51,342 nt of DNA from Limnohabitans sp. Rim8 (GCA_945897795.1 CAMDFT010000013.1:1-51342), one strand, 5' to 3'; shown: positions 27,521-50,010, numbered from the stretch's first letter. Notes: generated by a model not told the origin, from the letters alone. Numbers and translations: made by a program.

Positions 27521-28225
27521 GTGAGCCTGACGGGTGGGTGGCAGTGGCATTGGCGTGCCTGGCGTTCGCAAAAACGTTGGGCACCTGCTGCGGCACAAAT
27601 TTCAGATTGGCTGCTGGCGCAAGCCATGCCGCGCCAACAACTGGTGTTGATCGGACCGAGCGCAGGCTGGATGCTGCCCCCCGAATGGCTGACTCAGTTT
27701 GAGGAAGTGCATGCCTGGGACATCGACCCCTTGGCGGCACCTTTGTTTCGGTGGCGTCATGGTCAGGCTTTAAAGCGTGCAGGCACGCGCCTAACCCTGC
27801 ACACAGGCGATGGCTTGGCGCAACTCGATGAATGGACACGCACCCTGCCGAACGCCTTCTTCTGGTTTGACAACGTCCTGGGGCAATTGCGTTTCACAGA
27901 CCCATCGCCGGATGCCGTAGAGCAGCGTTTGAAAAATTTGCAGCGCCAACTCGAGACCGTTTCATGGGGCAGCGTCCATGACCGAATGTCTGGACGCCAC
28001 ACCCCTGGCACCCTCTTTCCGATGGGCCGCCACAGTTTGGCCGGATTGGCCATGGAAACCCCAGAAGGGCAGGCCTGGTTGCTCCAAATGGGGGCCATCA
28101 GTCCTTGGCTGGACCACTTGACCGAAGGCGTCTTGCCCAAAGGCACGCCCGTGCAGCACACTGCGTGGCCATTCAAACCGAGGTATGCGCATTGGCTCGA
28201 AATGGGCTGGACTGGGCCGTCTTAA
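27521..28225 (+). CDS. Conserved hypothetical protein with possible methyltransferase-like fold
   Basis: I do not recognise the family. The 234-residue product starts with GTG at 27521, eight bases after the GST stop; no in-frame ATG is better placed. A pattern near residues 37-70, LVLIGPSAGWMLP followed by VHAWDIDPLAAPLF, resembles the glycine-rich loop and acidic residue of Rossmann-type SAM-binding proteins, and a later DGLAQLDEW and FFWFDNVLGQL fit strands 3 and 4. Any activity is speculative. The 3' end overlaps the convergent GNAT gene by four bases. Confidence 0.6.
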   Translation: MSLTGGWQWHWRAWRSQKRWAPAAAQISDWLLAQAMPRQQLVLIGPSAGWMLPPEWLTQFEEVHAWDIDPLAAPLFRWRHGQALKRAGTRLTLHTGDGLAQLDEWTRTLPNAFFWFDNVLGQLRFTDPSPDAVEQRLKNLQRQLETVSWGSVHDRMSGRHTPGTLFPMGRHSLAGLAMETPEGQAWLLQMGAISPWLDHLTEGVLPKGTPVQHTAWPFKPRYAHWLEMGWTGPS

Positions 28226-28713
28226 TTTCCCAGATCCAGCGCCCAGTACTGACCCACCAGATCGTGTCCAAACGAATGGTGGGGCTCTTCGGACAACAAC
28301 ACAAAACCTGCGGTTTGGTAGATGTGCCTGGCCGCATGCAGGATGTCGTTGGTCCACAAAGTCAATTTGGGATAGCCCCGGTCTTTGGCAAAAGCGATGC
28401 ATTCCTGGGTCAAGCGCCGTCCCAGTCCGGTGCCGCGCATCTCGGGCTCCACGTACAGCAAGCGCAGCTTGGCCTCGGTGTCTGAGACCTTGACCACAAA
28501 CGACGAACCCACCACCCGACCCTCACACTCGGCGATCCAGGCGTTTTCTTTTACCGGGTCAAAGTTTTTCACGAACTGCGCGGCAATCTCGGCCACCAAG
28601 GCCTCGAAGGTGCCGTCCCAGCCGTATTCCTGCGCGTACAACATGCCTTGTCGATGCGCCACCCAGCCGATGTCGCCCACTTGCAGGCCGCGCAAAACAA
28701 TGTTGGGCGTCAT
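28222..28713 (-). CDS. GNAT family N-acetyltransferase
   Basis: This 163-residue acetyl-CoA-dependent acetyltransferase has the GNAT core: strand 4 LRLLYVEPEMRGTGLGRRL with the pyrophosphate-binding R/Q-x-x-G-x-G/A loop, and the C-terminal LTLWTNDILHAARHIYQTAG. Its ATG overlaps the stop of the lyase gene (ATGA), so it is the last gene of the long minus-strand catabolic operon. Either it acetylates a pathway intermediate or it rides along; the substrate is unknown. Confidence 0.88.
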   Translation of the reverse strand: MTPNIVLRGLQVGDIGWVAHRQGMLYAQEYGWDGTFEALVAEIAAQFVKNFDPVKENAWIAECEGRVVGSSFVVKVSDTEAKLRLLYVEPEMRGTGLGRRLTQECIAFAKDRGYPKLTLWTNDILHAARHIYQTAGFVLLSEEPHHSFGHDLVGQYWALDLGN

Positions 28714-29606
28714 GCCTTGTCACCGTTTTCATAACGCTGACCCAGCGCCAGCAATTGCGGTGTTTCAATGACCGCATTCAGGCCATCAAAATCAAGCATC
28801 TTTTCTTGCCAAGGCCGCGTGGTCTGGTGGGTGTGCAGGCTGGCGTAATAGCCTTGTAGCGTGTGCAGCACGGCCCGCGCCGTGCCGCCGGGGAAAATCA
28901 CGATTTTAAAACCGCGCTCGCCCAACTCGGCCGCGCTTTGCACCGGCGTTTTGCCACCCTCGACCATGTTGGCCAGCAGGGGAACACGTTTGGCAAACTG
29001 CGCACAGGCACGGTTCATCTGCTCGTCCGAGCGCAGGGCTTCGATGAACAAGGCATCGACGCCGCACTCCAGGTAGCGCTCGGCGCGCTCCAGAGCGGCA
29101 TCCAAACCTTCCACGGCCACCGCATCGGTGCGCGCCAGGATCAGGGTGTTGGGGTTGTGCCGGGCATCCAGGGCGGCGCGCAGTTTGCCCTGCATCTCGG
29201 CCACCGGTACCACGCCCTTGCCGTCCAGATGGCCGCAGCGTTTGGGGAAAGTCTGGTCTTCGATCTGGACCATCGCAGCCCCGGCGCGCTCAAAATCGCG
29301 CACCGTGCGCTGGGTGTTGAGCGCATTGCCAAAGCCGGTGTCGGCGTCCACGATCACCGGAATGTTGACGCGATCGGTGATGTGCGCCAAGGTCTGCGCC
29401 ACTTCGGTGGCGGTGGTCAGGCCAATGTCCGATCGGCCCAAGCGCGTGTAAGCGATCGATGCACCCGACAAATACAGCGCTTCAAAGCCGGCTTGCTGCG
29501 CCACCAACGCGGTGAGCGCGTCGTACACACCGGGGGCCAGCAAGGCCTGCGGTTGTTGCAGGCGATTCGCCAAAGAGGCCTGCTTGTCGTAGAGGTTATG
29601 GTTCAT
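28710..29606 (-). CDS. Isocitrate lyase/PEP mutase family C-C lyase
   Basis: This 298-residue TIM-barrel protein belongs to the family of 2-methylisocitrate lyase, 2,3-dimethylmalate lyase and oxaloacetate decarboxylase. Visible motifs are LYLSGASIAYTRLGRSDIG, the Mg-binding VIVDADTGFGN (Asp87, Asp89) and the lyase-type KRCGH with Cys124, which favours true carbon-carbon cleavage over decarboxylation. The product should be a 2-oxo or glyoxylate-like acid plus a carboxylate. The ATG at 29606 overlaps the FAD gene stop (ATGA). Together with the aconitase-family pair upstream it recalls dimethylmalate cleavage in nicotinate fermentation. Its base composition is closer to the left flank than to the rest of the operon. 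Confidence 0.88.
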   Translation of the reverse strand: MNHNLYDKQASLANRLQQPQALLAPGVYDALTALVAQQAGFEALYLSGASIAYTRLGRSDIGLTTATEVAQTLAHITDRVNIPVIVDADTGFGNALNTQRTVRDFERAGAAMVQIEDQTFPKRCGHLDGKGVVPVAEMQGKLRAALDARHNPNTLILARTDAVAVEGLDAALERAERYLECGVDALFIEALRSDEQMNRACAQFAKRVPLLANMVEGGKTPVQSAAELGERGFKIVIFPGGTARAVLHTLQGYYASLHTHQTTRPWQEKMLDFDGLNAVIETPQLLALGQRYENGDKA

Positions 29607-31051
29607 CGAATGGTTCCTTTCGATCGATTCGGCTGATATTCGGGGTTGAGTTGATTGGCCGCCGTGCCAGCTGCGATCCAGCCACCACCAATGGCGCTGA
29701 GCAATCCATTGCCCGACAAATAGCCCCACACCTCATTTCCAGAAACACCGCGTGCCGCGCCACCGGCAGCCAACAAATTGGGGAGCGGTCGTCCGTCCTC
29801 ACGCAATACACGACAGGTCGCATCAATGTCCAGCCCACCCTGTGTGTGAAACAGCGCGCCTGTGACCTTGACAGCGTAATAAGGCGCTTGCAATGTGCGT
29901 TTGAATACTCTGCCCAAACCATCGGCTTGCTGAGGTCCCACTTGGTCCAAAGTCGCTTGCAGTGTTTCAACACTGCAGCCCATTGTGGCGGCCAGTTCCT
30001 GGATGGTATTGGCCTTGCGAACAGCCCCTGCTTTTTCTGCTTCGACAAAATCTGGAAATTTTCGGGCCATGTCCAGCAAGGGGCCATCAAAGACATTCCA
30101 GGCGATATTTCCAGGCTGATCCAGCACGTTCACGGCGGCCTCGGAATAGCCTTGTGTCTCATCATGGAAGCGGCGGCCTTCGCCATTGATCTGAACCCCA
30201 CCCTCCATGATGATCGCCCAGGTCATGAGCGCGCCTTGCGGCGTGACCCAAGAGCCGTGGCCTTGGTAACCACCCAAGTCGGCCAAACGCGCACCCATGG
30301 CTTTGCCCCAGGCAATCGCGCTGCCATCGTTGCCGACGTGACCGCCGAACGCCGCATTGCGCATGGCGGGCAACATCTCGTTGACCATCGCGGCATTGCC
30401 GCCATACCCATTGCAAGCCAGCACCAAAACATCACAGGCGAGTCGCTCCAACGAGCCATCCGGCCGCCTGCAGCCCACACCTAAAACCCTGTCGTTGTCA
30501 TCCATCCAGATCTCACGCACCAGCGCCTGAGTCAATGTATCAGCGCCTGCCTGACTGGCAGTCCGCTCCATTGCCGCCATGAGGGCAAGGCCAGTGTGCT
30601 CGGGGACGGCATGCATTCTGCGCACACGATGACCTGGAAACAAAAATCCATCCAGGACTTCAAATTTGATTCCCTTTTCCTCTAGGGCATCAATGGCCTG
30701 AGACACCGCTTGGGTGTAGGCTTGCACCAAATGGGGTGCTGCCTGTCCATGGGATTTGGCCACCACATCCTGGGCAAATGCCGCATGGGAGTCCTCAATG
30801 CCCAAGGACTTTTGCAAACGGGTTTGTGCCGCCGGAACAAAACCTGATGACAAGGCGGTTGACCCGCTGGGCACGGCATCACGCTCCAGCAAGACGCATT
30901 CAACATCCGCCATCCTGAGTCGGATGGCTGTGGTCAGCCCACAAGCACCCGACCCCACGATCAACACGGGAACATGCGGGGTTTCTTCTGGCATGGTCGC
31001 AGACCGAACCACGGTTGGAGAAGAATTGGGGGCAGTGGCTTGCATGTTCAT
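29603..31051 (-). CDS. FAD-dependent oxidoreductase, fumarate reductase flavoprotein-like
   Basis: This 482-residue protein belongs to the FAD_binding_2 group (fumarate reductase, urocanate reductase, 3-ketosteroid dehydrogenase). It has the dinucleotide motif VLIVGSGACGLTTAIRL at about residues 29-45, LLERDAVPSGSTALSSG, and the C-terminal GGLDIDATCRVL and GGAARGVSGNEVWGYLSGN with the FAD-contacting end. No signal peptide or heme site is seen, so it is probably cytoplasmic. It would oxidise or reduce a C-C bond next to a carboxylate. It overlaps the LeuD-like gene and the lyase gene as ATGA at both ends. Confidence 0.87.
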   Translation of the reverse strand: MNMQATAPNSSPTVVRSATMPEETPHVPVLIVGSGACGLTTAIRLRMADVECVLLERDAVPSGSTALSSGFVPAAQTRLQKSLGIEDSHAAFAQDVVAKSHGQAAPHLVQAYTQAVSQAIDALEEKGIKFEVLDGFLFPGHRVRRMHAVPEHTGLALMAAMERTASQAGADTLTQALVREIWMDDNDRVLGVGCRRPDGSLERLACDVLVLACNGYGGNAAMVNEMLPAMRNAAFGGHVGNDGSAIAWGKAMGARLADLGGYQGHGSWVTPQGALMTWAIIMEGGVQINGEGRRFHDETQGYSEAAVNVLDQPGNIAWNVFDGPLLDMARKFPDFVEAEKAGAVRKANTIQELAATMGCSVETLQATLDQVGPQQADGLGRVFKRTLQAPYYAVKVTGALFHTQGGLDIDATCRVLREDGRPLPNLLAAGGAARGVSGNEVWGYLSGNGLLSAIGGGWIAAGTAANQLNPEYQPNRSKGTIR

Positions 31052-31539
31052 GATGGCCTTTTGATGCGCTGACGAAGTTGATTCATGAGGCCTCCGGCCT
31101 CGACCATGTTCAGAAGAAAATCAGGAATGGGGTCGCATGAGATGCGCGATCCATCAGGGGCCGTGAGAGTCAAGGTCTCCAGATCCAGCCCGAGGGACTG
31201 CAAATCCTTGAAAGCCGATGTGTCACGGCAGGTCAAAAGAAGCAACCCCAAATTGAACGCATTGCGAAAGAAAAGTCCACTGAAAGAAGGTGCAATGACG
31301 GCCCTGATGCCCAGATGAACGAGTGCGCCAGCAGCCTGCTCACGCGAAGAACCAATGCCAAAATTTGGACCAGCCACAATCACATCGCCCCTTTGGGCCT
31401 CTCTTGCAAATTCAGATCGAACCGCTTCAAGGCAATGGGGTGCAATACCCTCAATCCCCAACTTCATGTAAGCCCCAGGTGCCAGTGCATCGGTGTCGAT
31501 GTCCGCACCCAAAATCCAGACTCGGTGGGATGTGATCAT
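31048..31539 (-). CDS. Aconitase-family hydro-lyase small subunit (LeuD-like)
   Basis: This 163-residue swivel-domain subunit is of the 3-isopropylmalate dehydratase type. It starts RVWILGADIDTDALAPGAYM and carries the catalytic loop GPNFGIGSSREQAAGAL. The substrate-specificity loop reads PGAYMKLGIEG, unlike the usual PARYL of leucine enzymes. The true start is the ATG at 31539, which overlaps the large-subunit stop as ATGA. Given the catabolic setting and the lack of leuA or leuB, it likely hydrates another unsaturated dicarboxylate, as DmdB does in dimethylmaleate hydration; this is inference. Confidence 0.88.
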   Translation of the reverse strand: MITSHRVWILGADIDTDALAPGAYMKLGIEGIAPHCLEAVRSEFAREAQRGDVIVAGPNFGIGSSREQAAGALVHLGIRAVIAPSFSGLFFRNAFNLGLLLLTCRDTSAFKDLQSLGLDLETLTLTAPDGSRISCDPIPDFLLNMVEAGGLMNQLRQRIKRPS

Positions 31540-32831
31540 GCCAATGCCTCTCTTGGATCGCTGATGAAACCGCGCAAAGCGGATGCCGCTACGGTATAGG
31601 GCGAAGCAAGATAAACCTGCGCCGTGGCCGAACCCATGCGCCCCTTGAAATTCCGAGCCGTTGTGGCAATCACATTGGCACCATCCGGAATACTGCCACC
31701 ATAGCCTGAGCAAGCCCCACAGGTTGTGGGCAGGACTTCGGCTCCGGCATCGCGCAACACCGACATCACCCCTTCATTTTCTGCTTGGCTTTGGTCCGCC
31801 AAACTGGCGGGTGCCACCATCAGCCTCACACCCTGAGCAACCCGCTTGCCTTTGAAAATTTGGGCTGCCGCACGCAAATCGTCGAGCTTGGCCCCCGTAC
31901 ACGCACCGATGTAGGCCACCTGTACTGCAACGTTTTGGAATTCGTTGACTGCATGGGTGTTGGCTGGACTGTGGGGTGCGGCCACCTGGGGCGCCAGATC
32001 GGCAGCATTGAATCGGTGGACCAGGGCATAGGCTTCGTCATCGGTGTGCCAATGCCCAAGGTGGATGTCATCTTTTGACACGCCGTTTTTCACAAGCCAA
32101 TCTTGCGTCACTTCATCGGGTGCTATTAACCCCACTTGTGCACCCATTTCAGCGCTCATGTTGGACATCGTCATACGCTCTTGCATGGACAAGGCCTGCA
32201 CCGCTGGACCACAAAATTCAACCGCTTGATAGTCGCCCCCATTCATGCCAAATTGACCAATCATGTGGAGCATCATGTCTTTGGCCGTCAAACCCACGGG
32301 CAGTTGACCGTCCCACCACATGCGCCTCGTCTGCGGAACACGGACCCATATCTCACCTGTCACCACAACACCCAGCATTTCGGTGCTCCCAATACCGAAC
32401 ATGTAAGTGCCAAATGCTCCGCCGGTCGGGGAGTGTGAATCTCCGCCGACACAGAACATGCCCGGACGCAAATGTCCCTTTTGTGGCAACACGACATGGC
32501 AAATACCCTGGCTGTCATACACATGCGGAAGCTTCTGATCCTGGGCCCACTCACGGGCTATGCGTATGATGCGGCGCGAGTCCTCATCTTGCTCGGGCAC
32601 GTAATGGTCCATGACAAGAACCACCCGTGATTTGTCCCAAATTTCGGCCCCCAGCTCTTCCAGCATCGGTTTCAGCCGCCTGGGTCCCGATGAGTCGTGA
32701 AACATGGCCAAGTCCACTTTACAGCTGATGATGTCTCCCACGGCCACGTGAGATCGACACGACGCTTGAGCAATCAACTTTTGCGCCAAGGTTTGGGGGA
32801 TGGGCGTTTGCGTTGTCATGTCACTGTCCAT
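31536..32831 (-). CDS. Aconitase-family hydro-lyase large subunit (LeuC-like)
   Basis: The 431-residue large subunit binds the [4Fe-4S] cluster through Cys311 (IGACTGAKLDDLR), Cys371 and Cys374 (TTCGACSG). Substrate-binding MDHYVPEQ and GDSHSPTGGAFGT are present. It is slightly longer than the archaeal-type LeuC/HacA/DmdA proteins that it resembles, and ACTGAK replaces the SCTNGR of leucine enzymes. Together with the small subunit it should interconvert a hydroxy-dicarboxylate and an unsaturated dicarboxylate. It follows the regulator gene by 23 bases; an internal ATG at 32819 is an alternative start. Confidence 0.9.
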   Translation of the reverse strand: MDSDMTTQTPIPQTLAQKLIAQASCRSHVAVGDIISCKVDLAMFHDSSGPRRLKPMLEELGAEIWDKSRVVLVMDHYVPEQDEDSRRIIRIAREWAQDQKLPHVYDSQGICHVVLPQKGHLRPGMFCVGGDSHSPTGGAFGTYMFGIGSTEMLGVVVTGEIWVRVPQTRRMWWDGQLPVGLTAKDMMLHMIGQFGMNGGDYQAVEFCGPAVQALSMQERMTMSNMSAEMGAQVGLIAPDEVTQDWLVKNGVSKDDIHLGHWHTDDEAYALVHRFNAADLAPQVAAPHSPANTHAVNEFQNVAVQVAYIGACTGAKLDDLRAAAQIFKGKRVAQGVRLMVAPASLADQSQAENEGVMSVLRDAGAEVLPTTCGACSGYGGSIPDGANVIATTARNFKGRMGSATAQVYLASPYTVAASALRGFISDPREALA

Positions 32832-32854: not shown

Positions 32855-33646
32855 TCAGGCACGGATTTCCTTGGCCACAATGCGGGCGTCAATGCCACCC
32901 ACTTGCGACAACTCCATTTGGTATTCGTAGCGATCGGGACGGTACAAGCCATGCAACAAGAGGACAGGGCGATCGGCGGCGTCAAAAACCAAGCGGCGAA
33001 CCGACAACAATGCCGTACCCACAGCCACCTCGAGCTCCTGCGCCACTTGAGCATCTGCCTGCCTGGCTGAAACTGTTTGCATCGCACGACCCAGTTCAAT
33101 GCCTGACTCTTCCAGCAATTGCAAAATGGGCTTTTGTATCAAGTCACGCTGAACTATGCCCTTGACGATCGATTCCGGACAATAGGTGGTGATGTGCGAT
33201 ACAGGTCCCTCCTGCGTGCTGCGTCGACGCGCTGCCTTGCGTATCTTTGAACCCGGTGCCACCTGCAAGGTCAAGGCCAAACTGTCCGAAGCCTGAATCA
33301 CGCGCCAGTCCAGCACTTTGACGGTGGTGCCCCGACTCACACTCACGATGTTTTCCAGCAGACCCGTCAATTTGGTGGAGGGATGTCCCAGTGTCAACTC
33401 ATTTGACTGGCGGGCCCCCAGTTCTTTGCGGGTGGCGGGCCTCGTGCCTCGCCCAGCCTCGCGCACAATCAAACCATCTTCTGCAAGAAGTTCAAGAGCG
33501 CGGCGCACCGTCACACGACCTACGCCAAACTGTTGGGTTAACGCCAACTCACTCGGCAGACCCAGTGCGAAGCGCCCCTCGTCCAGTTGTTCACGCAACA
33601 CCAGATAAATCTGATGGTATTTGGTTAAAGGCAAAGAAGTAACCAT
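32855..33646 (-). CDS. GntR family regulator with UTRA ligand domain (HutC type)
   Basis: This 263-residue regulator has an N-terminal winged helix (residues about 8-75; LPSELALTQQFGVGRVTVRRALELL) and a C-terminal UTRA domain (about 95-255) ending in LLHGLYRPDRYEYQMEL. HutC-type proteins usually repress a pathway until its substrate or an intermediate binds the UTRA domain. It lies within the minus-strand operon, six bases after the AtuA-like gene, so it is probably autoregulated along with the pathway. The matching inverted repeats at 40762-40785 and 43098-43115 are candidate operators. Confidence 0.92.
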   Translation of the reverse strand: MVTSLPLTKYHQIYLVLREQLDEGRFALGLPSELALTQQFGVGRVTVRRALELLAEDGLIVREAGRGTRPATRKELGARQSNELTLGHPSTKLTGLLENIVSVSRGTTVKVLDWRVIQASDSLALTLQVAPGSKIRKAARRRSTQEGPVSHITTYCPESIVKGIVQRDLIQKPILQLLEESGIELGRAMQTVSARQADAQVAQELEVAVGTALLSVRRLVFDAADRPVLLLHGLYRPDRYEYQMELSQVGGIDARIVAKEIRA

Positions 33647-35050: not shown

Positions 35051-35361
35051 CAAAGCATGACCCCCAACAATGGTCCATGCTGCTGAGCGCCGTAGACATC
35101 ACCATCCCCAGGTGAGCCCGCACACACTTTACGTGGCAAAGTGAACTTGATGGCGCACAAATCAGCCATGTCATAACGGCTTATGCGGGCTGGGGCGCAG
35201 CCATACAAATGGGCCACCGAGGCCGTCGACAATTGTGGACTTTGGATGGCGCAATCATAACCATGGCGATCCCGAAAAAACAAATCGAGTGTCAACAAAG
35301 TGGGCCCCGCATTTTTACTGCGAATGACATGGACCAAATCGGTCAAGGCAACAGCGGGCAT
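35050..35361 (-). CDS. DUF4387 protein, partner of the AtuA-like protein
   Basis: This 103-residue protein begins MPAVALTDLVHVIRSKNAGP, the typical start of DUF4387, and has the family stretch YDMADLCAIKFTLPRKVCAG. It is normally encoded next to, or fused to, DUF1446 and presumably forms one enzyme with it. I chose the ATG at 35361, which starts at the conserved region and clears the SDR stop by seven bases; ATGs or GTGs further upstream would overlap the SDR gene. Activity unknown. Confidence 0.82.
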   Translation of the reverse strand: MPAVALTDLVHVIRSKNAGPTLLTLDLFFRDRHGYDCAIQSPQLSTASVAHLYGCAPARISRYDMADLCAIKFTLPRKVCAGSPGDGDVYGAQQHGPLLGVML

Positions 35362-35368
35362 GTTCAAT

Positions 35369-39421: not shown

Positions 39422-39457
39422 ATCAGTACCCCTAAGTTAGGTCGCAGTCATCCCGAG

Positions 39458-39479: not shown

Positions 39480-39513
39480 CAATGAAAACTGCCAGTTAAA
39501 AATGGCTAAGGGT

Positions 39514-40761: not shown

Positions 40762-40785
40762 AATTGTTCTTAAAATAGAACAATT
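40762..40785. promoter_or_regulatory. Perfect inverted repeat, candidate operator of both catabolic operons
   Basis: AATTGTTCT (40762-40770), a 6-base spacer TAAAAT, and AGAACAATT (40777-40785) form a perfect 9-bp inverted repeat in the 104-base gap between the divergent binding-protein gene (ATG 40731) and the first amidohydrolase gene (ATG 40836). Its central part TGTTCT-N6-AGAACA recurs with one change at 43098. Position and symmetry fit a dimeric GntR-type repressor acting on both directions. Confidence 0.7.
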
Positions 40786-43077: not shown

Positions 43078-43097
43078 ACCAGCGCTTCACTGTCAAA

Positions 43098-43115
43098 TGT
43101 TCTATTGACAGGACA
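43098..43115. promoter_or_regulatory. Second copy of the candidate operator
   Basis: TGTTCT (43098-43103), six bases ATTGAC, and AGGACA (43110-43115) repeat the core of the palindrome at 40762-40785 with identical spacing and one mismatch. It lies in the 137-base gap between the PrpD-like and first isochorismatase genes, the only long gap of the plus operon, so an internal promoter under the same regulator is likely. Confidence 0.6.
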
Positions 43116-43214
43116 AATCGATGCATGCACCATTTGTCAGAGGTCGATCCTGCATGCTTGCCGCACCTGATCACGACCGATCATCACCGACCACACACTG
43201 AAAGTTTTTTTAAA

Positions 43215-43901
43215 ATGCAAACTTCCGACAAGACAGCCCGACAGCTTTTCGCCGACATCAAGGCCGCTCCGACCCGCAAACGTTTTGGTTTCGGTCGCAT
43301 GCCCGCCTTGATCAACATCGATTTGCAAAAAGCCTACACTTGCGTTGGCGAATTTGCCACCGCCTATGAAACCGATCCTCACCAACTGGACCATGTCAAT
43401 GAGTTGGCTGCCGAATTCAGGTCCAAAGGGTTTCCTGTGGTCTGGACCTATGTGGCCTACATGCCTTCCGGCGAAGATTGCGGCGTCTGGGGGACCCGCT
43501 CCAACACTCCGGATTCCCTGCAAAACATCAAGATTGGCAGTCGCCGTGCAGAGTTTGACGACCGCCTGAAGATTGATCGCGAACGCGACATCATCATCAA
43601 CAAACGAATGGCGTCGGTTTTTTTCGAAACCAACCTGGGCTCGATCTTCACCTTCCATGGTGTGGACACGGTTGTCGTCACAGGAGGTTCGACCTCTGGT
43701 TGTGTTCGGGCCACTGTGGTGGACAGCCTGCAACGCAGTTTTCGCACCATCGTGCCGGAAGAGTGTGTTGCCGACAAACATGAATCCCCTCACTTTTCCA
43801 ACTTGTACGACATGGCCTTGAAATACGCGGACGTCATTTCGGTCAAGGAAACCCTGGAAGGCCTGCGTCAGCTGGCCCCAGCTTCGGGAGTGCGGGCGTG
43901 A
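43215..43901 (+). CDS. Isochorismatase-family amidohydrolase 1
   Basis: A 228-residue cysteine hydrolase resembling N-carbamoylsarcosine amidase. The catalytic triad of the family is complete: Asp36 in LINIDLQKAY, Lys130 in IIINKRMASVFFETNL and Cys163 in TGGSTSGCVRATVVDS. Such enzymes hydrolyse carbamoyl or amide C-N bonds and release ammonia. The ATG at 43215 is preceded only by an A/T-rich tract with no clear ribosome-binding site. It overlaps the next gene as GTGA. Confidence 0.92.
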   Translation: MQTSDKTARQLFADIKAAPTRKRFGFGRMPALINIDLQKAYTCVGEFATAYETDPHQLDHVNELAAEFRSKGFPVVWTYVAYMPSGEDCGVWGTRSNTPDSLQNIKIGSRRAEFDDRLKIDRERDIIINKRMASVFFETNLGSIFTFHGVDTVVVTGGSTSGCVRATVVDSLQRSFRTIVPEECVADKHESPHFSNLYDMALKYADVISVKETLEGLRQLAPASGVRA

Positions 43902-44812
43902 AAAGAGATCCCGGTTTTTACGACTATTTGCCCTACGACCAGCGGCCCAAAATAAGCTGGCCCGGTGGTGCCCGAGTGGCATTTTGGGTCGCCCCCAACA
44001 TCGAATACTACGAGCTCGATCCACCACGCAATCCTGCTCGTGCGCCATGGGCTCGCCCCTCACCCGACGTTCAAAATTTCTCGTACCGCGACTACGGCAA
44101 TCGCGTGGGATTTTGGCGCATGCTCGACGCCATGAAACGCTGCAACATGCGTGGCAGTGTGTCGCTCAACGTGGCCGTGTGTGAACACCACCCCGAGGTG
44201 ATTGCTGCTTGTGCTGAAAATGGTTGGGAGTTTTATTCTCACGGCACATACAACACCCGCTATCTCATGGGAATGACCGAAGCGCAAGAGCGCGCCGTCA
44301 TCCAAGATTCCATCGACACGATCAAAAAACACACGGGCCAAAAACTGGACGGTTGGCTGGCCCCCGCTCTGACCTACACCGACAGAACCATGGACTTGGT
44401 GGCTGAAATGGGTCTGACCTATGTTTGCGACCTGTTTCACGATGACCAACCCGGCCCCGTGAAAGTCAAGCAGGGTCGATTGACCAGCATCCCCTATTCG
44501 CTGGAAATGAACGACACCATCGTCTACAACGTCAATCTGGTTTCACCGCGTCGCTACGCAGACATCCTCAAACGCCAGTTTGACCGGCTCTATGCTGAGG
44601 GCGAAAAATCGGGAACGGTGATGTGCATACCACTTCACCCCTATTTGATTGGTCAACCCTATCGGATGGCGGCCTTTGAAGAGGCCCTGTCTTACATCAC
44701 GGGCCATGACAAGGTTTGGCTGGCCACTGGTAGGGAAATCGCGCGCCACTTCAACACGCATTACCACGCCGAATTCACGGCGGCGGCACAGACCGTGGGA
44801 GAAGCCGCATGA
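43898..44812 (+). CDS. PuuE-like NodB-fold amidohydrolase, paralogue 2
   Basis: A 304-residue member of the PuuE-like branch of the NodB superfamily. It has WPGGARVAFWVAPNIEYYE, YRDYGNRVGFWRMLDAM, the SHG motif with His115, GWLAPALTYTDRTMDLVAE, LFHDDQPG and the C-terminal LHPYLIGQPYRM. PuuE hydrolyses the hydantoin ring of allantoin without metal. The start is GTG, coupled to the isochorismatase stop. It shares all key positions with paralogue 4 and is a likely active enzyme; the cyclic or linear amide substrate is unknown. Confidence 0.9.
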   Translation: MKRDPGFYDYLPYDQRPKISWPGGARVAFWVAPNIEYYELDPPRNPARAPWARPSPDVQNFSYRDYGNRVGFWRMLDAMKRCNMRGSVSLNVAVCEHHPEVIAACAENGWEFYSHGTYNTRYLMGMTEAQERAVIQDSIDTIKKHTGQKLDGWLAPALTYTDRTMDLVAEMGLTYVCDLFHDDQPGPVKVKQGRLTSIPYSLEMNDTIVYNVNLVSPRRYADILKRQFDRLYAEGEKSGTVMCIPLHPYLIGQPYRMAAFEEALSYITGHDKVWLATGREIARHFNTHYHAEFTAAAQTVGEAA

Positions 44813-45753
44813 GTTTGCCCGAAGATTACCTCGATTACCCTTTGCGTCGTTATGGCATGGACCATGACCGGTACGCTTGGTCCATGTTGCCGCAACGCCC
44901 CCCAGTGCGTTGGCCCCAGGGTGCTCGTTTGGCACTTTGGGTGATACCGGCTCTCGAGTGGTTTCCCCTCAACATGAAAGGATTGCCCTTCAAGCCCCCA
45001 GGGGCGATGCAAACGGCCTATCCTGATTTTCGCCATTACACCTTGCGAGATTACGGCAATCGGGTTGGCATCTTTCGCATCATGCAAGCTTTGGAAAAAC
45101 ATGCCATACCCGCTTCGGTTGCCATCAATGCCGCCGTGGCCCAACGCTACCCGTCGCTGATCCAGTCTTGTTTACAACGCGGCTGGGAAATCATCGCCAA
45201 TGGCATGGACATGGACCACATCCACCATGGTGGACTGGCCGAAGCCGATGAGCGGCAGTGGATCACCCACTCCCTGGATGTGCTCCAGCGCATCAGCGGT
45301 CAACGCATCCGTGGCTGGCTTTCCCCTGCCAAATCAGAATCACACCACACGCTTGACTTGTTAAAGGAAGCCGGTCTCGACTACGTTTGCGACTGGGTCA
45401 ATGACGACATGCCCTATGCCATGCACACACGTGCAGGTGAGCTGATGGCCATGCCGCACCCGATTGACATTGACGACCACACCATTCTGGTTCAAAACCA
45501 CCATACCGAAGACGACTTCAGGGACCAGTTGATCGATCAATTCGACGGGCTTTACCGTGAATCGAGCAGCGATAACGGTCGCGTCATGGCCATTTCCCTG
45601 CACCCTTGGGTGATTGGTCAACCTTACCGAATCAGGGCGCTGGAAGAGGCACTGGCCCACATCATGAGTCACCCTGGGGTTTGGGCGGCCACCGGCAACG
45701 ACATCCTGGATGCATGGAAGACCAGCGCAGCCCAAGCTTCGTCTGCGACCTGA
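44809..45753 (+). CDS. PuuE-like NodB-fold amidohydrolase, paralogue 3 (active-site His replaced)
   Basis: A 314-residue paralogue with the same framework: WPQGARLALWVIPALEWF, LRDYGNRVGIFRIMQAL, GWLSPAKSESHHTLDLL, WVNDDMPY and LHPWVIGQPYRI. Where paralogues 2 and 4 have SHG, it reads ANG with Asn131 in place of histidine, followed by an unusual DMDHIHHGG. It may be catalytically altered or a partner subunit of an active copy. ATGA overlap with paralogue 2. Confidence 0.88.
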   Translation: MSLPEDYLDYPLRRYGMDHDRYAWSMLPQRPPVRWPQGARLALWVIPALEWFPLNMKGLPFKPPGAMQTAYPDFRHYTLRDYGNRVGIFRIMQALEKHAIPASVAINAAVAQRYPSLIQSCLQRGWEIIANGMDMDHIHHGGLAEADERQWITHSLDVLQRISGQRIRGWLSPAKSESHHTLDLLKEAGLDYVCDWVNDDMPYAMHTRAGELMAMPHPIDIDDHTILVQNHHTEDDFRDQLIDQFDGLYRESSSDNGRVMAISLHPWVIGQPYRIRALEEALAHIMSHPGVWAATGNDILDAWKTSAAQASSAT

Positions 45754-45778
45754 ACCCTCTGGCCATTGGAAAGCACCC

Positions 45779-46342
45779 ATGCCTGTCATCTCCATCACTT
45801 TACTGCCGGGCTACAGCCCTGAAACCGAGCAGCGCCTGGTCAATCGCGTCGCGCAGGCAGCCCGATCTGTGATCGCGGCCTCTTCTGCGGGCACCACTGT
45901 TTTTGTGAACCAGGCCAGCACCTACCAACGCGATGGTCGTGTGTTCAGTGGCGGCGGTGCTGCACGTGTCGATGCATGTGCGCTGGTGCGTGACTTTTTG
46001 CAGCGCATGCAAAACCGACAGCTTGCGGATGCGGCGCTGCTGCTGACACCTGATTTCACCATGCGATTTCCTGCAAGTCCTGTCATGCACAAACTCGAAG
46101 AGTTGGTGTCATGGGCCCACGGCAGGTACCAACAGGTCGGCAAAAACTATGAGAAATTTGACGAATCCTGGGGCGATGAATCCTGTGTGGTCTATTGCTT
46201 TGGCACATTGCACGGCATCTGGCTGGACGGCACGCCTTTTGAGGGCATCCGTTTCATTGACCGTTTTGAAATCGTGGACGGCTTGATTCAGCGCCAAGAC
46301 GTCTGGAATGATTTGGCTGAAACCCAGGCCCAACGCCGCTGA
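45779..46342 (+). CDS. Tautomerase-superfamily domain fused to an NTF2/SnoaL-like domain
   Basis: The 187-residue product has two parts. Residues 1-57 match the 4-oxalocrotonate tautomerase family: Met is followed directly by Pro (the catalytic Pro-1 after Met removal), then VISITLLPGYSPETEQRLVN and VFVNQASTYQRDGRVF. The arginines 11 and 39 of 4-oxalocrotonate tautomerase are Tyr and Thr here. Residues about 65-185 form an NTF2/SnoaL-like alpha-beta barrel (VRDFLQRMQNRQLADAALLL, FDESWGDESCVVYCFG, IRFIDRFEIVDGLIQRQDVW). The ATG at 45779 is chosen because it exposes the proline. The pair of isomerase-type folds in one chain is unusual. Confidence 0.8.
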   Translation: MPVISITLLPGYSPETEQRLVNRVAQAARSVIAASSAGTTVFVNQASTYQRDGRVFSGGGAARVDACALVRDFLQRMQNRQLADAALLLTPDFTMRFPASPVMHKLEELVSWAHGRYQQVGKNYEKFDESWGDESCVVYCFGTLHGIWLDGTPFEGIRFIDRFEIVDGLIQRQDVWNDLAETQAQRR

Positions 46343-46352
46343 GAAGGCGCAA

Positions 46353-47318
46353 ATGACGGGGCACCTCCCAATGCTGGACTCTGGCGATTTGGCTGCACAC
46401 GCCATGGAGGTGGCCATGCAGGATCGGATTGCGTATTCAGCCATGCCCACTCGTCCAGCCCTTCAATGGCCTGAAGGCGCTCGACTGGCCCTTTGGGTTG
46501 CGCCCAACATTGAGCACTACGAATACTTGCCGGAGGAGGTGCGTGTTCGAAACCCATGGCCAAGGGTTCCTCACCCCGATATTCTTGGATATGGTCTGCG
46601 CGACTATGGCAACCGGGTTGGCGTTTGGCGGTTGATGGAGGTGTTCGACCGGTTCAATTTGCCCTGCACCGTGTCTCTGTCCATGGCGGTTTTGGACATG
46701 TACCCGGACATTGCCGAGGCCATGCTCAAGCGCCATTGGGAATTCATGTCGCATGGCATGTTCAACACCCGCTACCACTGGGGCATGAACGAGCAAGAAG
46801 AACGGGACGCCATTGAGGAATGCCAGACCATTCACCGCCGCATGACCGGAAAAAGTCTGCGTGGCTGGTTTTCTCCTGCGGCATCGAACACACTCCTGAC
46901 CCCTGACTTGGTGGCCGAGTCGGGCATGGACTACCTGTGCGACCTTTACCATGACGATCAGCCCACCCCCATCAGGGTCCGCCGTGGTTCATTGCTGTCC
47001 TTGCCTTACAGCATGGAAATCAACGACAGCATCGCTTGGCGTCGGGGCATGGAGGCAGAGGCTTTTGCACAAAAAATCTGCGATGAATTTGACACCCTTT
47101 ATGCCGAAGGCGGACGTGTGATGAACATCGCCGTCCACCCGTTCATCATGGGCCAACCCCACCGCATTGAACACCTCGACAGCGCACTGGCCTACATCCT
47201 GGGACACAGCGGGGTGTGGTGCGCTACTGGCAGCCAAATCGTTGACAGTTACCGCGAACAATCCGCCCTGTCTGCACAATCTCCACAAACGCCATTGACC
47301 GAAAGTTTCAAGCCATGA
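46353..47318 (+). CDS. PuuE-like NodB-fold amidohydrolase, paralogue 4
   Basis: A 321-residue PuuE-like protein with WPEGARLALWVAPNIEHYE, LRDYGNRVGVWRLMEVF, the SHG motif with His134, GWFSPAASNTLLTPDLV, LYHDDQPT and VHPFIMGQPHRI. It is closest to paralogue 2 in its key residues. The ATG at 46353 has GAGAAGG upstream and lies 10 bases after the tautomerase-fusion gene; longer frames would start inside that gene. It overlaps isochorismatase 2 by four bases. Confidence 0.9.
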   Translation: MTGHLPMLDSGDLAAHAMEVAMQDRIAYSAMPTRPALQWPEGARLALWVAPNIEHYEYLPEEVRVRNPWPRVPHPDILGYGLRDYGNRVGVWRLMEVFDRFNLPCTVSLSMAVLDMYPDIAEAMLKRHWEFMSHGMFNTRYHWGMNEQEERDAIEECQTIHRRMTGKSLRGWFSPAASNTLLTPDLVAESGMDYLCDLYHDDQPTPIRVRRGSLLSLPYSMEINDSIAWRRGMEAEAFAQKICDEFDTLYAEGGRVMNIAVHPFIMGQPHRIEHLDSALAYILGHSGVWCATGSQIVDSYREQSALSAQSPQTPLTESFKP

Positions 47319-47995
47319 ACCCGCCCGCCGACTACATCCGCGCCTACATGCCCGATCGCCCGATCAAGCCAGGCTCGACGGCCTTGGTCATGATTGACTT
47401 GCAATATGCCACGGGCTCACGCCATGGCGCTTTGGGGCGAAAACTTCAGGCCGAAGGCTCAACGATTGGCAACTACCGTTTTGACCGCATTGAATCCCAC
47501 GTCGTTCCCAATTCATTGCGCTTGAGAGACCATTTTCGCGCCATGGGTCGACCCATCTTGCATGTCACCATTGGCGCAGCCCATCCCGATGCCTTGGATG
47601 CGCCACCGCACATGCGCAAATTGTTTGTCGAGTTTCGCAACTTCGTCGGCAGCCGCGAGCACGAGATCCTGGATGAATTGAAACCCTTGTCGGGTGAACA
47701 TGTTCTGAGAAAAACCACCATTGGCGCTTTCGCTTCGACCAACATCGACAGCTTGCTGCGCGCACTTCAGTGCGAGCAAATTTACCTCACCGGCGTCTCG
47801 ACCAACATGTGTGTCGAAACGACGGCTCGGGAAGCTGCCGACCGCGGTTACCTGGTGACCCTGGTTGAAGATGCTTGCGGCACCACGCACGAAGATTTGC
47901 ACCTGGTCACCGTGCGCAATTTTCAACGCCTCTTTGGTCGTGTCAGCAGCACCGAACATGTTTTGAACGAATTGGAGAGCCCCCATGGTCAATGA
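47315..47995 (+). CDS. Isochorismatase-family amidohydrolase 2
   Basis: A second cysteine hydrolase of 226 residues, with the triad Asp28 (ALVMIDLQYA), Lys133 (LRKTTIGAFASTN) and Cys166 (TGVSTNMCVETTAREA). It differs strongly from the first copy, so the two probably act on different amides of the same pathway, for example successive ammonia-releasing steps. It overlaps paralogue 4 (ATGA) and the next gene by 11 bases. Confidence 0.92.
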   Translation: MNPPADYIRAYMPDRPIKPGSTALVMIDLQYATGSRHGALGRKLQAEGSTIGNYRFDRIESHVVPNSLRLRDHFRAMGRPILHVTIGAAHPDALDAPPHMRKLFVEFRNFVGSREHEILDELKPLSGEHVLRKTTIGAFASTNIDSLLRALQCEQIYLTGVSTNMCVETTAREAADRGYLVTLVEDACGTTHEDLHLVTVRNFQRLFGRVSSTEHVLNELESPHGQ

Positions 47996-48788
47996 GACTG
48001 CAGCACCCGCGCCGACTTGGCGGGTTCTGGTGATTGTTCCGTTCGCCATGTCAGCAGAGAACCTGTTGTTGCGGCAGGCGCAATTGGCCAGTTTGTCCTT
48101 GGGCCCCCACATCCACTTTGAATACCGACCCGTCAAAGCCGGTCCCGTCAATTACTCCAGCCATCACGATTTTGTTTTAGCGGATGTGGCCAACTTCGAA
48201 GCCGGTTGCCGCGCACAGGCCGAAGGTTTTGACGCTGTCTGCATTGACACCATGAGCGACTCAGGGGTGGCCGCTTTGCGCTCGGTGCTGGACATCCCGG
48301 TGTTTGGCCCCGGCAAGGTATCGGTGCTGACGGCGCTCATGCTGGGTGACCGTTTTTCGTTTTTGACCATGGCCAGTCGATGGAAACCGCTCTACAAGAA
48401 AGCCCTCGACGAGCTCGGTCTCCACCACAAATGCGCCTCTGTTCGGGCCATCGAAGTATCCCCTGACAACCAAAACCTGTTGTCAGGTAAAGAGGAAGAC
48501 GTTTTTCCCTTGCTGGAAGCTGCCGCGCTCAAGGCCATTGAGCAAGATGGTGCCGAAGTGATCATTTTGGGCTCGACCACCATGCACCAATCGCATGCCT
48601 ATCTCCAGTCCCGATTGCCTGTACCCATCATCAACCCTGGCCCGCTCAGCTACAAAATGGCCGAGGCGGCCCTGGGGCTTCGGTTGACGCACAGCCGTGT
48701 GGGCTTCCCCAAGCCCATGCACGACCGCTTGAACATGCTGGGTTGCATGTTGGATGCGGCCCAAACCCATGTCAAAGGATCCACATGA
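47985..48788 (+). CDS. Asp/Glu/hydantoin racemase-family protein without the usual cysteines
   Basis: This 267-residue protein has the two-lobe fold of the Asp/Glu racemase superfamily (hydantoin racemase, maleate isomerase, arylmalonate decarboxylase). The two active-site positions are recognisable by context: ADAVCIDTMSDSGVAALR-like strand, with Thr89 where hydantoin racemase has Cys in ACFGDPG, and VIILGSTTMHQSHA with Ser197 where it has Cys in LGCAGM. Both cysteines are thus replaced. Racemisation by two thiols is unlikely; a one-base, hydrolytic or lyase role is possible. Eleven bases overlap the isochorismatase gene. Confidence 0.8.
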   Translation: MVNETAAPAPTWRVLVIVPFAMSAENLLLRQAQLASLSLGPHIHFEYRPVKAGPVNYSSHHDFVLADVANFEAGCRAQAEGFDAVCIDTMSDSGVAALRSVLDIPVFGPGKVSVLTALMLGDRFSFLTMASRWKPLYKKALDELGLHHKCASVRAIEVSPDNQNLLSGKEEDVFPLLEAAALKAIEQDGAEVIILGSTTMHQSHAYLQSRLPVPIINPGPLSYKMAEAALGLRLTHSRVGFPKPMHDRLNMLGCMLDAAQTHVKGST

Positions 48789-49624
48789 CACGTTTGCTCA
48801 ATTCCGAACAAGTCCAGCGCTACGAGCAGGATGGTTTTTTGTTTCCGATCGATGTGCTCACACCAGCCGAAGTGACCCGCTACCGTTCAGAGCTCCAAGC
48901 ATGGGAGCAGGCTAGGGGAGGGCCGATCGATTTTCCAGAAAAATCGAAGTCTTACCTTCTGTTTGATTGGGCCGATCAATTGGTCCACCACCCTCGCATA
49001 CTGGATGCTGTCGAAGACGTGATTGGCCCTGACATTTTGGTTTACCACTCGACCCTTTTTTTGAAAGAGGCCCACACGCCGGCTTACGTGCGATGGCACC
49101 AGGATAGCACCTATTTTTATCTTGACCCTCATCTGCATATCACTGCGTGGGTGGCATTGTCAGACGCCACCGAACAAGCCGGTTGCATGAGGGCGCTGCC
49201 AGGCAGTCACCACTGGGGCTCCTTTGAACACGACGACAAACCTGAGCCCATGAACATGATTCGGCGCGGGCAGGGGATCAGTGATCGGTTCGACCATGAA
49301 ACTGGGGTCCCCATGCCCGTGATGGCGGGTCAAATGTCCTTGCATCACACAGACCTTGTGCATGCTTCTGGCGCCAATGACAGCGATGACCGCCGATTGG
49401 GATTTGCCATCAGTTATATCCCGGCTCACCTCAAACCCACCGGTCCAGTTCGACCGTCCGCCTTGTGTGTCCGAGGCAAGGACCATGGTCATTTTCTGGC
49501 TGAGCAGCGATTGAAACAGGCGCTTTCTTCGCAAGCCCTTGAAGAGCACAAACAAGCGCTGGCTCTTTTCAGATCCTTGCAAGACGCCGGATTTTCTTCC
49601 CCCTCCAAACAGGTAGCCGTATGA
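48785..49624 (+). CDS. Phytanoyl-CoA dioxygenase (PhyH) family oxygenase
   Basis: A 279-residue Fe(II)/2-oxoglutarate oxygenase. The iron ligands are visible as HQD (His105, Asp107) in YVRWHQDSTYFYL and His193 in LVHASGANDSDDRR; the following arginine should bind 2-oxoglutarate. Family members hydroxylate CoA esters or free small molecules, including N-methyl and quaternary amines. It may make the first oxidative change on the imported compound. The ATG at 48785 overlaps the previous stop (ATGA). Confidence 0.9.
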   Translation: MTRLLNSEQVQRYEQDGFLFPIDVLTPAEVTRYRSELQAWEQARGGPIDFPEKSKSYLLFDWADQLVHHPRILDAVEDVIGPDILVYHSTLFLKEAHTPAYVRWHQDSTYFYLDPHLHITAWVALSDATEQAGCMRALPGSHHWGSFEHDDKPEPMNMIRRGQGISDRFDHETGVPMPVMAGQMSLHHTDLVHASGANDSDDRRLGFAISYIPAHLKPTGPVRPSALCVRGKDHGHFLAEQRLKQALSSQALEEHKQALALFRSLQDAGFSSPSKQVAV

Positions 49625-50010
49625 GTACATCACTGGATTCAGTTCAACTGGTGGCTCTGGTCGAGCATTATTTTGCAACGGTTGACCGAATGGATCTCGA
49701 TGCGACGCTGGCCTGTTTCGAGCCAGATGCCACCTTTACCATCGCCACCTTCAATACGATTTATCAAGGACGAGACACTGGCATTCGAAGCATGTTCGAG
49801 CGTCTCAACAGTCGCTACAACCGCGTTTGGCACGGGAATTTTGACCACGTCATTCAATCCCCCGCGCGCGTCGCCAGCCAGTTCCGGGTTGAGAACACAC
49901 TGCTGGATGGCAGCTTGAGTGTCAAAAACAACTGCAATTTTTTCAGCGTCCGTGGCACCCGGTTTGATGCCGTGCAGGTCTACATGAGTGGCGACAACTC
50001 ACTGGCCTGA
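49621..50010 (+). CDS. NTF2/SnoaL-like protein
   Basis: This 129-residue single-domain protein has the NTF2-like fold (LVALVEHYFATVDRMDLDATLA, FEPDATFTIATFNTIYQGRD, VKNNCNFFSVRGTRFDAVQVYM). Such domains act as isomerases, dehydratases or ligand-binding partners. It overlaps the PhyH gene (ATGA) and ends the plus operon. The C-terminal domain of the tautomerase fusion is a distant relative. No clear terminator follows in the 30-base gap to the convergent synthetase. Confidence 0.82.
   Translation: MSTSLDSVQLVALVEHYFATVDRMDLDATLACFEPDATFTIATFNTIYQGRDTGIRSMFERLNSRYNRVWHGNFDHVIQSPARVASQFRVENTLLDGSLSVKNNCNFFSVRGTRFDAVQVYMSGDNSLA

Follow-up and report, generated by a model that had tools for sequence, protein, structure and literature searches.

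Which compound is degraded by a gene cluster that joins a dedicated importer to PuuE-like hydrolases, cysteine amidohydrolases, an aconitase-family hydro-lyase and two kinds of carbon–carbon lyase? The question is raised by Limnohabitans sp. Rim8 (GCA_945897795.1; 3.26 Mb, 87% complete), in which such a cluster occupies 28.7 to 50.0 kb of a single contig of 51,342 nucleotides (CAMDFT010000013.1:1-51342; G000:C13 in our numbering), the whole of which is called the window below. The original prediction, made from this sequence, had proposed an uncharacterised system for the import and degradation of a nitrogenous compound. The observation is real and the cluster is conserved; its enzymes belong to known families, but no described pathway with this gene set was met among the open-access papers listed and the pathway cannot be named as a described one. 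As to its function, we propose, giving the full statement a probability of about one in two, that substituted maleimides and succinimides, five-membered cyclic imides carrying C-alkyl groups, are imported and mineralised through this cluster. Taken alone, the opening of the ring, its deamidation and the cleavage of an alkylmalate are likely, and we rate them above the full statement.

The cluster consists of two gene sets in divergent orientation, within which adjacent genes often overlap by a few bases. From the centre outward, the minus-strand set reads LivK, LivH, LivM, LivG, LivF, SDR, DUF4387, AtuA, GntR/UTRA, LeuC, LeuD, an FAD_binding_2 flavoprotein (FAD2) and a lyase of the phosphoenolpyruvate-mutase/isocitrate-lyase superfamily (ICL-type lyase). 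The plus-strand set reads PuuE_A, MmgE/PrpD, Isoch1, PuuE_B, PuuE_C, a tautomerase–SnoaL fusion, PuuE_D, Isoch2, a racemase-fold protein, PhyH and SnoaL. Pfam and NCBIfam matches confirmed all of these families in the window, including those named beforehand: four PuuE-like proteins, two isochorismatase folds, a racemase fold, MmgE/PrpD, aconitase-family subunits and a lyase with the KRCGH motif.

In the proposed route, the branched-chain-amino-acid-type ABC importer (LivF, LivG, LivM, LivH and LivK; 36144–40731, minus strand; Pfam matches) would take up the imide, which the PuuE-like hydrolases would open to a half-amide. Isoch1 and Isoch2 would release ammonia, leaving an alkylated maleate or succinate, and FAD2 would introduce the double bond that a saturated ring lacks. 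The LeuCD-type hydro-lyase would then hydrate the alkylmaleate to an alkylmalate, which the ICL-type lyase would cleave to pyruvate (or another 2-oxoacid) and an acid; the AtuA/DUF4387 lyase would cleave a citramalate-type product. We infer every reaction, as well as the substrate. The order itself, ring or amide opening with release of ammonia followed by hydration and carbon–carbon cleavage, agrees with the original prediction and is well supported by comparative genomics.

The first part of that comparison concerns co-occurrence. A scan with a PuuE_B alignment over one genome per species (84,980 species) yielded 414 stretches that encode relatives. The best 80 loci among them were retained with 10-kb flanks; the neighbourhoods compared number 93 (L025–L117). 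PuuE_C comes next after PuuE_B in all 80 of the best PuuE_B loci, and Isoch1 lies ahead of PuuE_B in 69 of the 74 with room for it, making up a triad. The 93 neighbourhoods held 77 matches to Isoch1, 89 to PuuE_B, 88 to PuuE_C, 32 to LivK and 23 to SnoaL, while 15 of 16 control genes from the window had none and one had four. Both halves fall within one 20-kb locus in eight of the 80, with AtuA to PuuE_B in window order (L025, L027, L028, L030, L054, L056, L061, L062), which is the most that 10-kb flanks can reveal. When 38 of the 80 cluster genomes were searched for the far end, the ICL-type lyase was found at 71% identity or more in 29 and AtuA at 58% or more in 25; the two lay a few kb apart on one contig in 20. 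FAD2 adjoins the lyase in 27 of 30 loci, the order LeuC–GntR–AtuA–DUF4387–SDR–LivF is intact in all eight loci L148–L155, and the GntR/UTRA gene adjoins that of LeuC also in L032, L038, L053 and L105. The halves thus belong together, as had been supposed, and the contrary case, that they never co-occur elsewhere, is excluded. Distribution is nonetheless patchy: full-length relatives of the tautomerase–SnoaL fusion occur in three of 299 family genomes, the bacterium's own included, and in none of three other genomes of the genus. Judged by record titles, with no background rate set beside them, many of the loci come from lake, reservoir and pond genomes. PuuE_B–PuuE_C pairs 74–85% like the window's were also seen in metagenome-assembled genome records titled Singulisphaera, Nitrosovibrio, Bordetella parapertussis and Klebsiella pneumoniae (L055, L074, L082, L089), where titles may be wrong or bins contaminated.

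The two halves also share a candidate control element. The 104-bp divergent promoter carries TTGTTCTTAAAATAGAACAA at 40764–40783, a palindrome (TTGTTC-N8-GAACAA) that is a candidate operator by conservation of form: TTGTYCYN6RGRACAA recurs in 24 of 25 LivK/PuuE_A intergenic gaps, window included. Before Isoch1 the palindrome is exact in 26 of 67 cases, has one or two mismatches in 13 (among them the Burkholderia-type L032, L038 and L053) and three or more in 28, which include four full window-order clusters (L054, L056, L061, L062) as well as distant relatives. Random 225-base stretches of the same loci contained it in 25 of 2000 draws, true sites included. It is conservation that makes the evidence here, because the number of sites in the window, one exact and one with two mismatches, is unremarkable against shuffles (mean 0.63; at least two sites in 11 of 100). 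The GntR/UTRA protein (32855–33646, minus strand; PF07702 5.6e-30, PF00392 2.8e-15) presumably binds the palindrome. A 12-genome search for tetrapyrrole-cleaving genes of the same regulon, with up to one mismatch allowed, gave nothing: the palindrome matched 34 times and the reversed control pattern 52 times, genes near off-cluster sites being left unexamined; three genomes (G300, G326, G328) had matches above their own control. The weaker site in the window, found by pattern match upstream of Isoch1 (43097–43116), bears on transcription. Of the two translationally coupled divergent operons originally envisaged, the divergent sets and their overlaps stand, but the plus strand is not one operon, because the gap with this palindrome parts MmgE/PrpD (ending at 43077) from Isoch1 and because PuuE_A–MmgE and the tautomerase–SnoaL gene are oriented opposite to the window in many relatives.

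The main support for the mechanism comes from variant clusters, in which the same predicted functions are supplied by other genes. LeuC/LeuD genes lie near the triad in 13 of the 93 neighbourhoods, of the window's type in four (L032, L038, L053, L105) and of a distantly related bacterial LeuCD type in nine. On Rhizobium/Neorhizobium plasmids (L107, L117) the triad is accompanied by LeuCD of the bacterial type, Liv genes, ICL-type lyase, FAD2, two racemase-fold genes and MmgE. HyuB/HyuA with an isochorismatase-type hydrolase replace PuuE and Isoch1 in Paraburkholderia (L163), Azospirillum (L164) and Neorhizobium petrolearium (L114), all three with the ICL-type lyase and Liv genes, L163 and L164 with LeuCD, and L164 and L114 with FAD2. 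Variovorax sp. RA8 (L162) has no PuuE and joins an isochorismatase–ICL-type lyase–LeuC–LeuD kernel to a luciferase-like monooxygenase (LLM) flavin oxidoreductase, a flavin reductase and a RibBA homologue, which may represent an oxidative, Rut-like ring opener as a third variant. At the cleavage end, a CaiB coenzyme A (CoA)-transferase and an enzyme of the 3-hydroxy-3-methylglutaryl-CoA (HMG-CoA)-lyase type accompany the triad, LeuCD and FAD2 in Acidiphilium (L110), where the ICL-type lyase is absent from the stretch, and stand beside ICL-type lyase, triad and LeuCD in Sphingomonas JE1 (L111).

Since such non-homologous replacements recur, ring opener, hydratase and carbon–carbon lyase each appear to be exchangeable, around a constant theme of amide, unsaturated diacid, alkylmalate and cleavage. 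All the variant clusters would be accounted for by an intermediate that is an amide, together with a double bond open to hydration and an alkylmalate. An amino acid intermediate would leave them unexplained, because the annotation of the minimal clusters L105 and L110 shows no ammonia lyase; the same absence favours an imide over an amino-acid-yielding ureide. Moreover, a lyase after the hydratase is needed only if the diacid is not an acid of the tricarboxylic acid cycle, so the carbon skeleton should be C-alkylated. Several of these loci have further features. The minimal cluster of Burkholderia plantarii (L105) lies on a conjugative plasmid (p1) between IS481 and IS6 transposases and may therefore move as a catabolic cassette, and transposases lie on one side of the Acidiphilium cluster. 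The triad of Salipiger abyssi (L109) has amidases, HyuA/HyuB, a cystathionine beta-lyase and a sulfurtransferase beside it, and its ring substrate may contain sulfur. Neighbours in L064–L067 (protocatechuate-type), L096–L100 and L101–L104, annotated through single representatives, were judged unlinked.

How well do the individual enzymes suit these roles? All four PuuE-like proteins fall short of the curated cut-off of the PuuE allantoinase model (TIGR03212, 424.6 bits): PuuE_A (40836–41720, plus strand) scores 60.6, PuuE_B (43898–44812, plus) 149.4, PuuE_C (44809–45753, plus) 137.5 and PuuE_D (46416–47318, plus) 144.4. PuuE_B and PuuE_D, 47% identical to each other, look like canonical ring hydrolases: both histidines are invariant, His115 and His247 of PuuE_B in 90 of 90 aligned sequences and the two of PuuE_D in 34 of 34. 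Among solved structures, PuuE_B matches 1z7a (1.5e-35) and the PuuE allantoinase 3cl6 (7.9e-32). PuuE_C and PuuE_A are divergent. The former has lost His115 in 65 of 84 aligned sequences (Asn in 56, His in 19), and the latter, aligned over 26 sequences, has no Pfam match at 0.01 and was detected through TIGR03212. Each ring opener may be a heteromer of a canonical protein and a divergent partner (B+C, D+A), since PuuE_C accompanies PuuE_B throughout and a locus of Variovorax paradoxus VAI-C (L115:6382-12759) pairs D- and A-type proteins. This second-type triad comprises a cysteine hydrolase, a PuuE_D-like (55%) and a PuuE_A-like protein (41%); two racemase-fold genes and an ABC importer of the amino-acid type stand alongside, and there is no LeuCD in the stretch. 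Isoch1 (43215–43901, plus; PF00857 1.1e-27), of the N-carbamoylsarcosine-amidase type, and Isoch2 (47315–47995, plus; PF00857 1.3e-35) are isochorismatase-fold cysteine amidohydrolases with an Asp-Lys-Cys triad, the residues being assigned by inspection; Isoch2 scores 87 bits with the biuret hydrolase model (cut-off 370).

The hydro-lyase subunits are assigned more firmly to family than to substrate. LeuC (31536–32831, minus strand), of the LeuC/HacA type, scores above cut-off with NF001614 (521 bits) and TIGR01343 (411) and slightly below it with TIGR02086 (404 of 410). LeuD (31048–31539, minus) belongs to the LeuD/DmdB family (TIGR02087, 146.5 bits; cut-off 108.95). Its loop YMKL aligns with YLRT of the homoaconitase 2pkp and YLVY of the isopropylmalate/citramalate isomerase 3vba, so that Lys stands where 2pkp has Arg and 3vba has Val, a likeness to 2pkp in charge only. 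The positive residue, observed in three window-type sequences (window, L032, L038) in an alignment made without L053 and L105, would fit an extra carboxylate on the substrate. The nearest solved proteins to FAD2 (29603–31051, minus; PF00890 2.4e-53) are flavocytochrome c fumarate reductases, in which it has Tyr aligned to both Arg of the motifs TTRDKAS and RLGGN, which we take to be the active-site arginines of flavocytochrome c; a fumarate-reductase function was rejected or left weak because of this replacement at both positions, and the tricarballylate dehydrogenase TcuA model gave 128.4 bits against a cut-off of 369.

For cleavage, the ICL-type lyase (28710–29606, minus; PF13714 9.4e-45), with KRCGH and NMVEGGKTP motifs, has the prpB model TIGR02317 as its best match (292.3 bits; cut-off 354.4), and its solved relatives include methylisocitrate lyases, petal death protein and 2,3-dimethylmalate lyase. 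The AtuA protein (33653–35053, minus) is homologous to the solved citramalate lyase subunit A (9erq/9evf, 'Citramalate lyase, subunit A (cmlA)'; phmmer 2.7e-90). Its structure model (mean predicted local distance difference test score, pLDDT, 78.9) has 9evf as its single match in the Protein Data Bank at E ≤ 0.001, with 35% identity over 454 columns, a template-modelling (TM) score of 0.67 and a root-mean-square deviation of 7.7; this model and that of the racemase-fold protein are informative for fold only. The DUF4387 protein (35050–35391, minus; PF14330 1.4e-28) adjoins AtuA in all eight loci L148–L155 and is the probable second subunit of the lyase. Among the matches listed, the open-access literature yielded nothing on AtuA with DUF4387, nor on the 2025 citramalate lyase structure.

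A clue to the substrate comes from four Burkholderia-type clusters, in which genes for a CoA-transferase, an acyl-CoA dehydrogenase, an electron-transfer flavoprotein (ETF) beta subunit and an FAD-binding protein taken for ETF alpha adjoin the lyase: the B. plantarii plasmid (L105), Caballeronia hypogeia (L156/L157), Chitinasiproducens palmae (L158) and Burkholderia sp. SRS-W (L159/L160). This is probably a glutarate module. It is contiguous in three of the four; in SRS-W it is split over two contig ends, one gene being divided between them. At its C terminus the dehydrogenase has YEGTHDIHALILGRAITG, exact in L105, L157 and L158 and not in L160. A second such dehydrogenase, 83–84% identical to the query, exists elsewhere in C. 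hypogeia and SRS-W, so the module's copy looks dedicated. The core substrate that we favour, and that would release glutarate, is hematinic acid, 3-(2-carboxyethyl)-4-methylmaleimide: hydrolysis and hydration would give a triacid whose methylisocitrate-lyase-like cleavage would yield pyruvate and glutarate (C8H12O7 = C3H4O3 + C5H8O4). Related maleimides derived from tetrapyrroles (methyl-, methyl-ethyl- and methyl-vinyl-maleimide) would fall to the additional hydrolases, dioxygenase, SDR and tautomerase that the freshwater version carries. Hematinic acid and other tetrapyrrole-derived maleimides are thus our best single candidates, although we name them tentatively. Passages of PMC7318184 describe hematinic acid as an end product in leaves, put chlorophyll turnover at about 10^12 kg/year and cite maleimides in leaves and lake sediments. 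For senescent leaves, passages of PMC7318184 and PMC12860425 report both hematinic acid and methyl-ethyl-maleimide, and for recent sediments they report maleimides. A title in the reference list of PMC8669743 names an E. coli heme-degrading protein that releases hematinic acid.

A number of observations weigh against the imide proposal, the first of which concern the substrate. The CoA-transferase of L105 has the succinate-glutarate CoA-transferase model NF052585 as its best, at 542 bits and below the cut-off of 750; for the dehydrogenase, the glutaryl-CoA dehydrogenase model NF045552 ranks fourth (207 of 470 bits), and its identity rests on the C-terminal motif, which we take to be typical of that enzyme. 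No relative of the module dehydrogenase above 33% identity was found in the other 89 of 93 loci, many of them short, and no glutarate module lies near the window's cluster; relatives of both enzymes lie on other contigs of the genome (84%, and 63% over residues 7–299). Nor is there a tetrapyrrole-cleaving gene near the cluster, and the palindrome with at most one mismatch occurs once only in the 87%-complete genome, marking no other locus. In the leaves treated in passages of PMC7318184, hematinic acid was found and maleimides were not. As for the enzymes, FAD2 is unnecessary for a maleimide that is already unsaturated, the isopropylmalate dehydratase small subunit 1v7l reads differently at the LeuD loop and gives no help, and MmgE/PrpD, the racemase-fold protein, SDR, PhyH, SnoaL and the tautomerase have no firm role. 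PuuE_B is far nearer to PuuE allantoinase than to HpPgdA (1.7e-13), whose structure is near those of known imidases; Isoch1 has N-carbamoylsarcosine amidohydrolase as its nearest named enzyme (3.8e-28); and the relatives of the racemase-fold protein are allantoin/hydantoin racemases. Finally, many PuuE_B–PuuE_C loci have neither LeuCD nor lyase within reach, though many are too short for the other module.

The last three enzymes would suit a cyclic ureide (a substituted hydantoin, an allantoin-like compound or a dihydropyrimidine), and this is the alternative that survives best, if an unlikely one. PuuE would open the ring, the isochorismatase-type enzyme would remove the carbamoyl group, the racemase fold would sort stereoisomers, and an amino acid skeleton would pass to the hydro-lyase and lyases. 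That HyuA/HyuB, known by hydantoinase/oxoprolinase names, stand in for PuuE in some clusters speaks for it too. Set against this are the distance of PuuE_B from the allantoinase cut-off (149 bits against 424.6), the ammonia lyase or aminotransferase that an amino acid would need before hydration and that is annotated in neither minimal cluster, and the racemase fold, which was not found in L105 or L110. In the window this protein (47985–48788, plus strand; PF01177 2.8e-31) has Thr89, nearly invariant, and Ser197, invariant in 21 sequences, at both positions where relatives have catalytic Cys, and its motifs DTMSDSG and GSTTM are kept among 45 aligned sequences across alpha- and betaproteobacteria; the best fold matches of its model (pLDDT 82.5) are allantoin racemases. 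The isomerisation by an isomerase-like fold that had been predicted is therefore not supported as stated, and plain hydantoin utilisation, with the Cys missing and no amino acid step, was rejected or left weak.

More improbable again are two pathways under one regulator with different substrates: one, made up of PuuE, isochorismatase and glutarate module, would be a general route for cyclic imides or glutarimide, and the other, made up of FAD2, LeuCD and the lyases, would serve methylated dicarboxylates. Glutarimide would yield glutarate directly, and each half is met alone: PuuE_B–PuuE_C without LeuCD or lyase as above, and the lyase module without PuuE in L108 and L162. Many loci are, however, too short to display the other module, amidase, lyase and LeuCD stay grouped even where the ring opener has changed (L162, L163, L164), and many genomes have the palindrome ahead of each half. 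An aromatic N-heterocycle, attacked by PhyH or another oxygenase in a pathway of the maleamate type as the original prediction had hinted, is very doubtful: isochorismatase and maleate-isomerase folds are common to such pathways, the PhyH iron site is intact, the lyase kernel of Variovorax RA8 is accompanied by a flavin reductase and an LLM flavin oxidoreductase, and L163 has PhyH-family and xanthine-dehydrogenase-type genes some kb from the lyase, but no ring hydroxylase is conserved with the cluster, PhyH was not found in L032, L038, L053, L105, L107, L110, L111 or L117, the maleate-isomerase Cys is missing and plain maleate needs no alkylmalate lyase. Degradation of pyridoxine, trigonelline, caffeine, riboflavin or lumichrome was rejected or left weak, the genes of these pathways being absent from the cluster.

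The remaining genes complete the picture. The MmgE/PrpD protein (41713–43077, plus strand; PF03972 2.6e-41) has IDS-epimerase and cis-aconitate-decarboxylase-type proteins as its nearest solved relatives, and the SDR (35369–36139, minus; PF13561 3e-57) lies between DUF4387 and LivF in all eight loci L148–L155. PhyH (48785–49624, plus; PF05721 1e-36), an Fe(II)/2-oxoglutarate dioxygenase type, keeps HxD, the distal His and Arg among 22 aligned sequences; a SnoaL-like protein follows (49621–50010, plus; PF12680 3.5e-10). The 4-oxalocrotonate-tautomerase/SnoaL fusion (45779–46342, plus; TIGR00013 3.6e-4, below cut-off; PF12680) keeps its MPV start, with the Pro after Met of 4-oxalocrotonate tautomerases, among 24 aligned sequences. 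A second fusion, 62% identical, is encoded elsewhere in the genome (L024:2575-5517, G000:C6) beside unrelated genes, among them those of a LuxR-type response regulator and an FAD_binding_3 monooxygenase.

Start codons were chosen by conservation at 29606 for the ICL-type lyase (listed open reading frame, ORF, from 29729), 31539 for LeuD (ORF from 31713), 45779 for the fusion (M-P-V), about 46416 for PuuE_D (ORF from 46308) and 48785 for PhyH; that of Isoch1 is probably 43215 (ORF from 42966), and the DUF4387 ORF is listed from 35418. Outside the cluster, the first 27 kb of the window hold cytochrome oxidase, UbiA and COX15 genes among others. A GNAT acetyltransferase (28222–28713), at which the predicted span had begun, overlaps the lyase stop codon and is best left out of the core, as a GNAT lies beside the lyase in only one of 30 lyase loci (L118, the closest relative; flanks of at most 1.5 kb). 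At the other end, an AMP-forming acyl-CoA ligase (50041–51336, minus; NF006182, 682 bits), cut by the contig end, is possibly linked, and relatives (81–85%) lie directly upstream of Isoch1 in L039, L040, L049 and L051.

If the imide proposal is true, it has a wider meaning. We consider it possible, though doubtful, that Proteobacteria of fresh water and those associated with plants import what remains of chlorophyll, heme and bilins as monopyrroles (hematinic acid, methyl-, methyl-ethyl- and methyl-vinyl-maleimide and their dihydro forms). They would recycle the nitrogen and carbon of these compounds with PuuE-type imidases that are heteromeric, and would cleave alkylmalates in three ways, alternative or additional to one another. 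Among the matches listed, the open-access literature held nothing on bacterial growth on hematinic acid or alkylmaleimides; the cluster would then show, for the first time at the level of genes, how natural tetrapyrrole decay ends, and a handful of small compounds together with named gene clusters could be used to test the fate of the pyrrole ring. Functions would also suggest themselves for the AtuA/DUF4387 pair of aerobes, the Cys-less racemase-fold branch and the paired PuuE-like proteins, and names assigned automatically, for instance polysaccharide deacetylase and isopropylmalate dehydratase, would be corrected.

Known systems share parts of this scheme. The nicotinate fermentation of Eubacterium barkeri ends with dimethylmaleate hydratase DmdAB and then 2,3-dimethylmalate lyase; as in our cluster, a LeuCD/DmdAB-type hydratase precedes an ICL-superfamily lyase acting on a dialkylmalate, but the fermentation is anaerobic, reaches its dialkylmaleate through a B12 mutase and is not known to involve an imide ring, PuuE or an AtuA pair. 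PrpB, petal death protein and dimethylmalate lyase share superfamily and KRCGH motif with the window's lyase, for which prpB is the best model, whereas that lyase scores below the prpB cut-off and has NMVEGG where five superfamily chains compared have NMTEFG. Citramalate lyase CmlA (the deposited name) is of the same family as the window's AtuA, beside which the DUF4387 partner lies; the title of its entry, an ADP–pyruvate complex, implies a nucleotide. The creatinine/N-methylhydantoin route (HyuA/HyuB-type enzymes with N-carbamoylsarcosine amidase) and the Rut pathway likewise place a ring opener before an isochorismatase-fold amidase, but are not known to include LeuCD or an alkylmalate lyase. 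The proposed opening steps have a precedent in HxnM and HxnN of the Aspergillus nidulans nicotinate pathway: in the passages of PMC9304392 on these enzymes, the ring of a cyclic imide is opened by HxnM, a relative of cyclic imidases and of the PuuE fold, after which the amidase HxnN deamidates the product, freeing ammonia. They differ from our cluster in that the imide is the six-membered 3-hydroxyglutarimide, which goes to hydroxyglutarate with no hydratase or lyase, and in that HxnM falls on the HpPgdA/imidase side of the family (PMC9304392).

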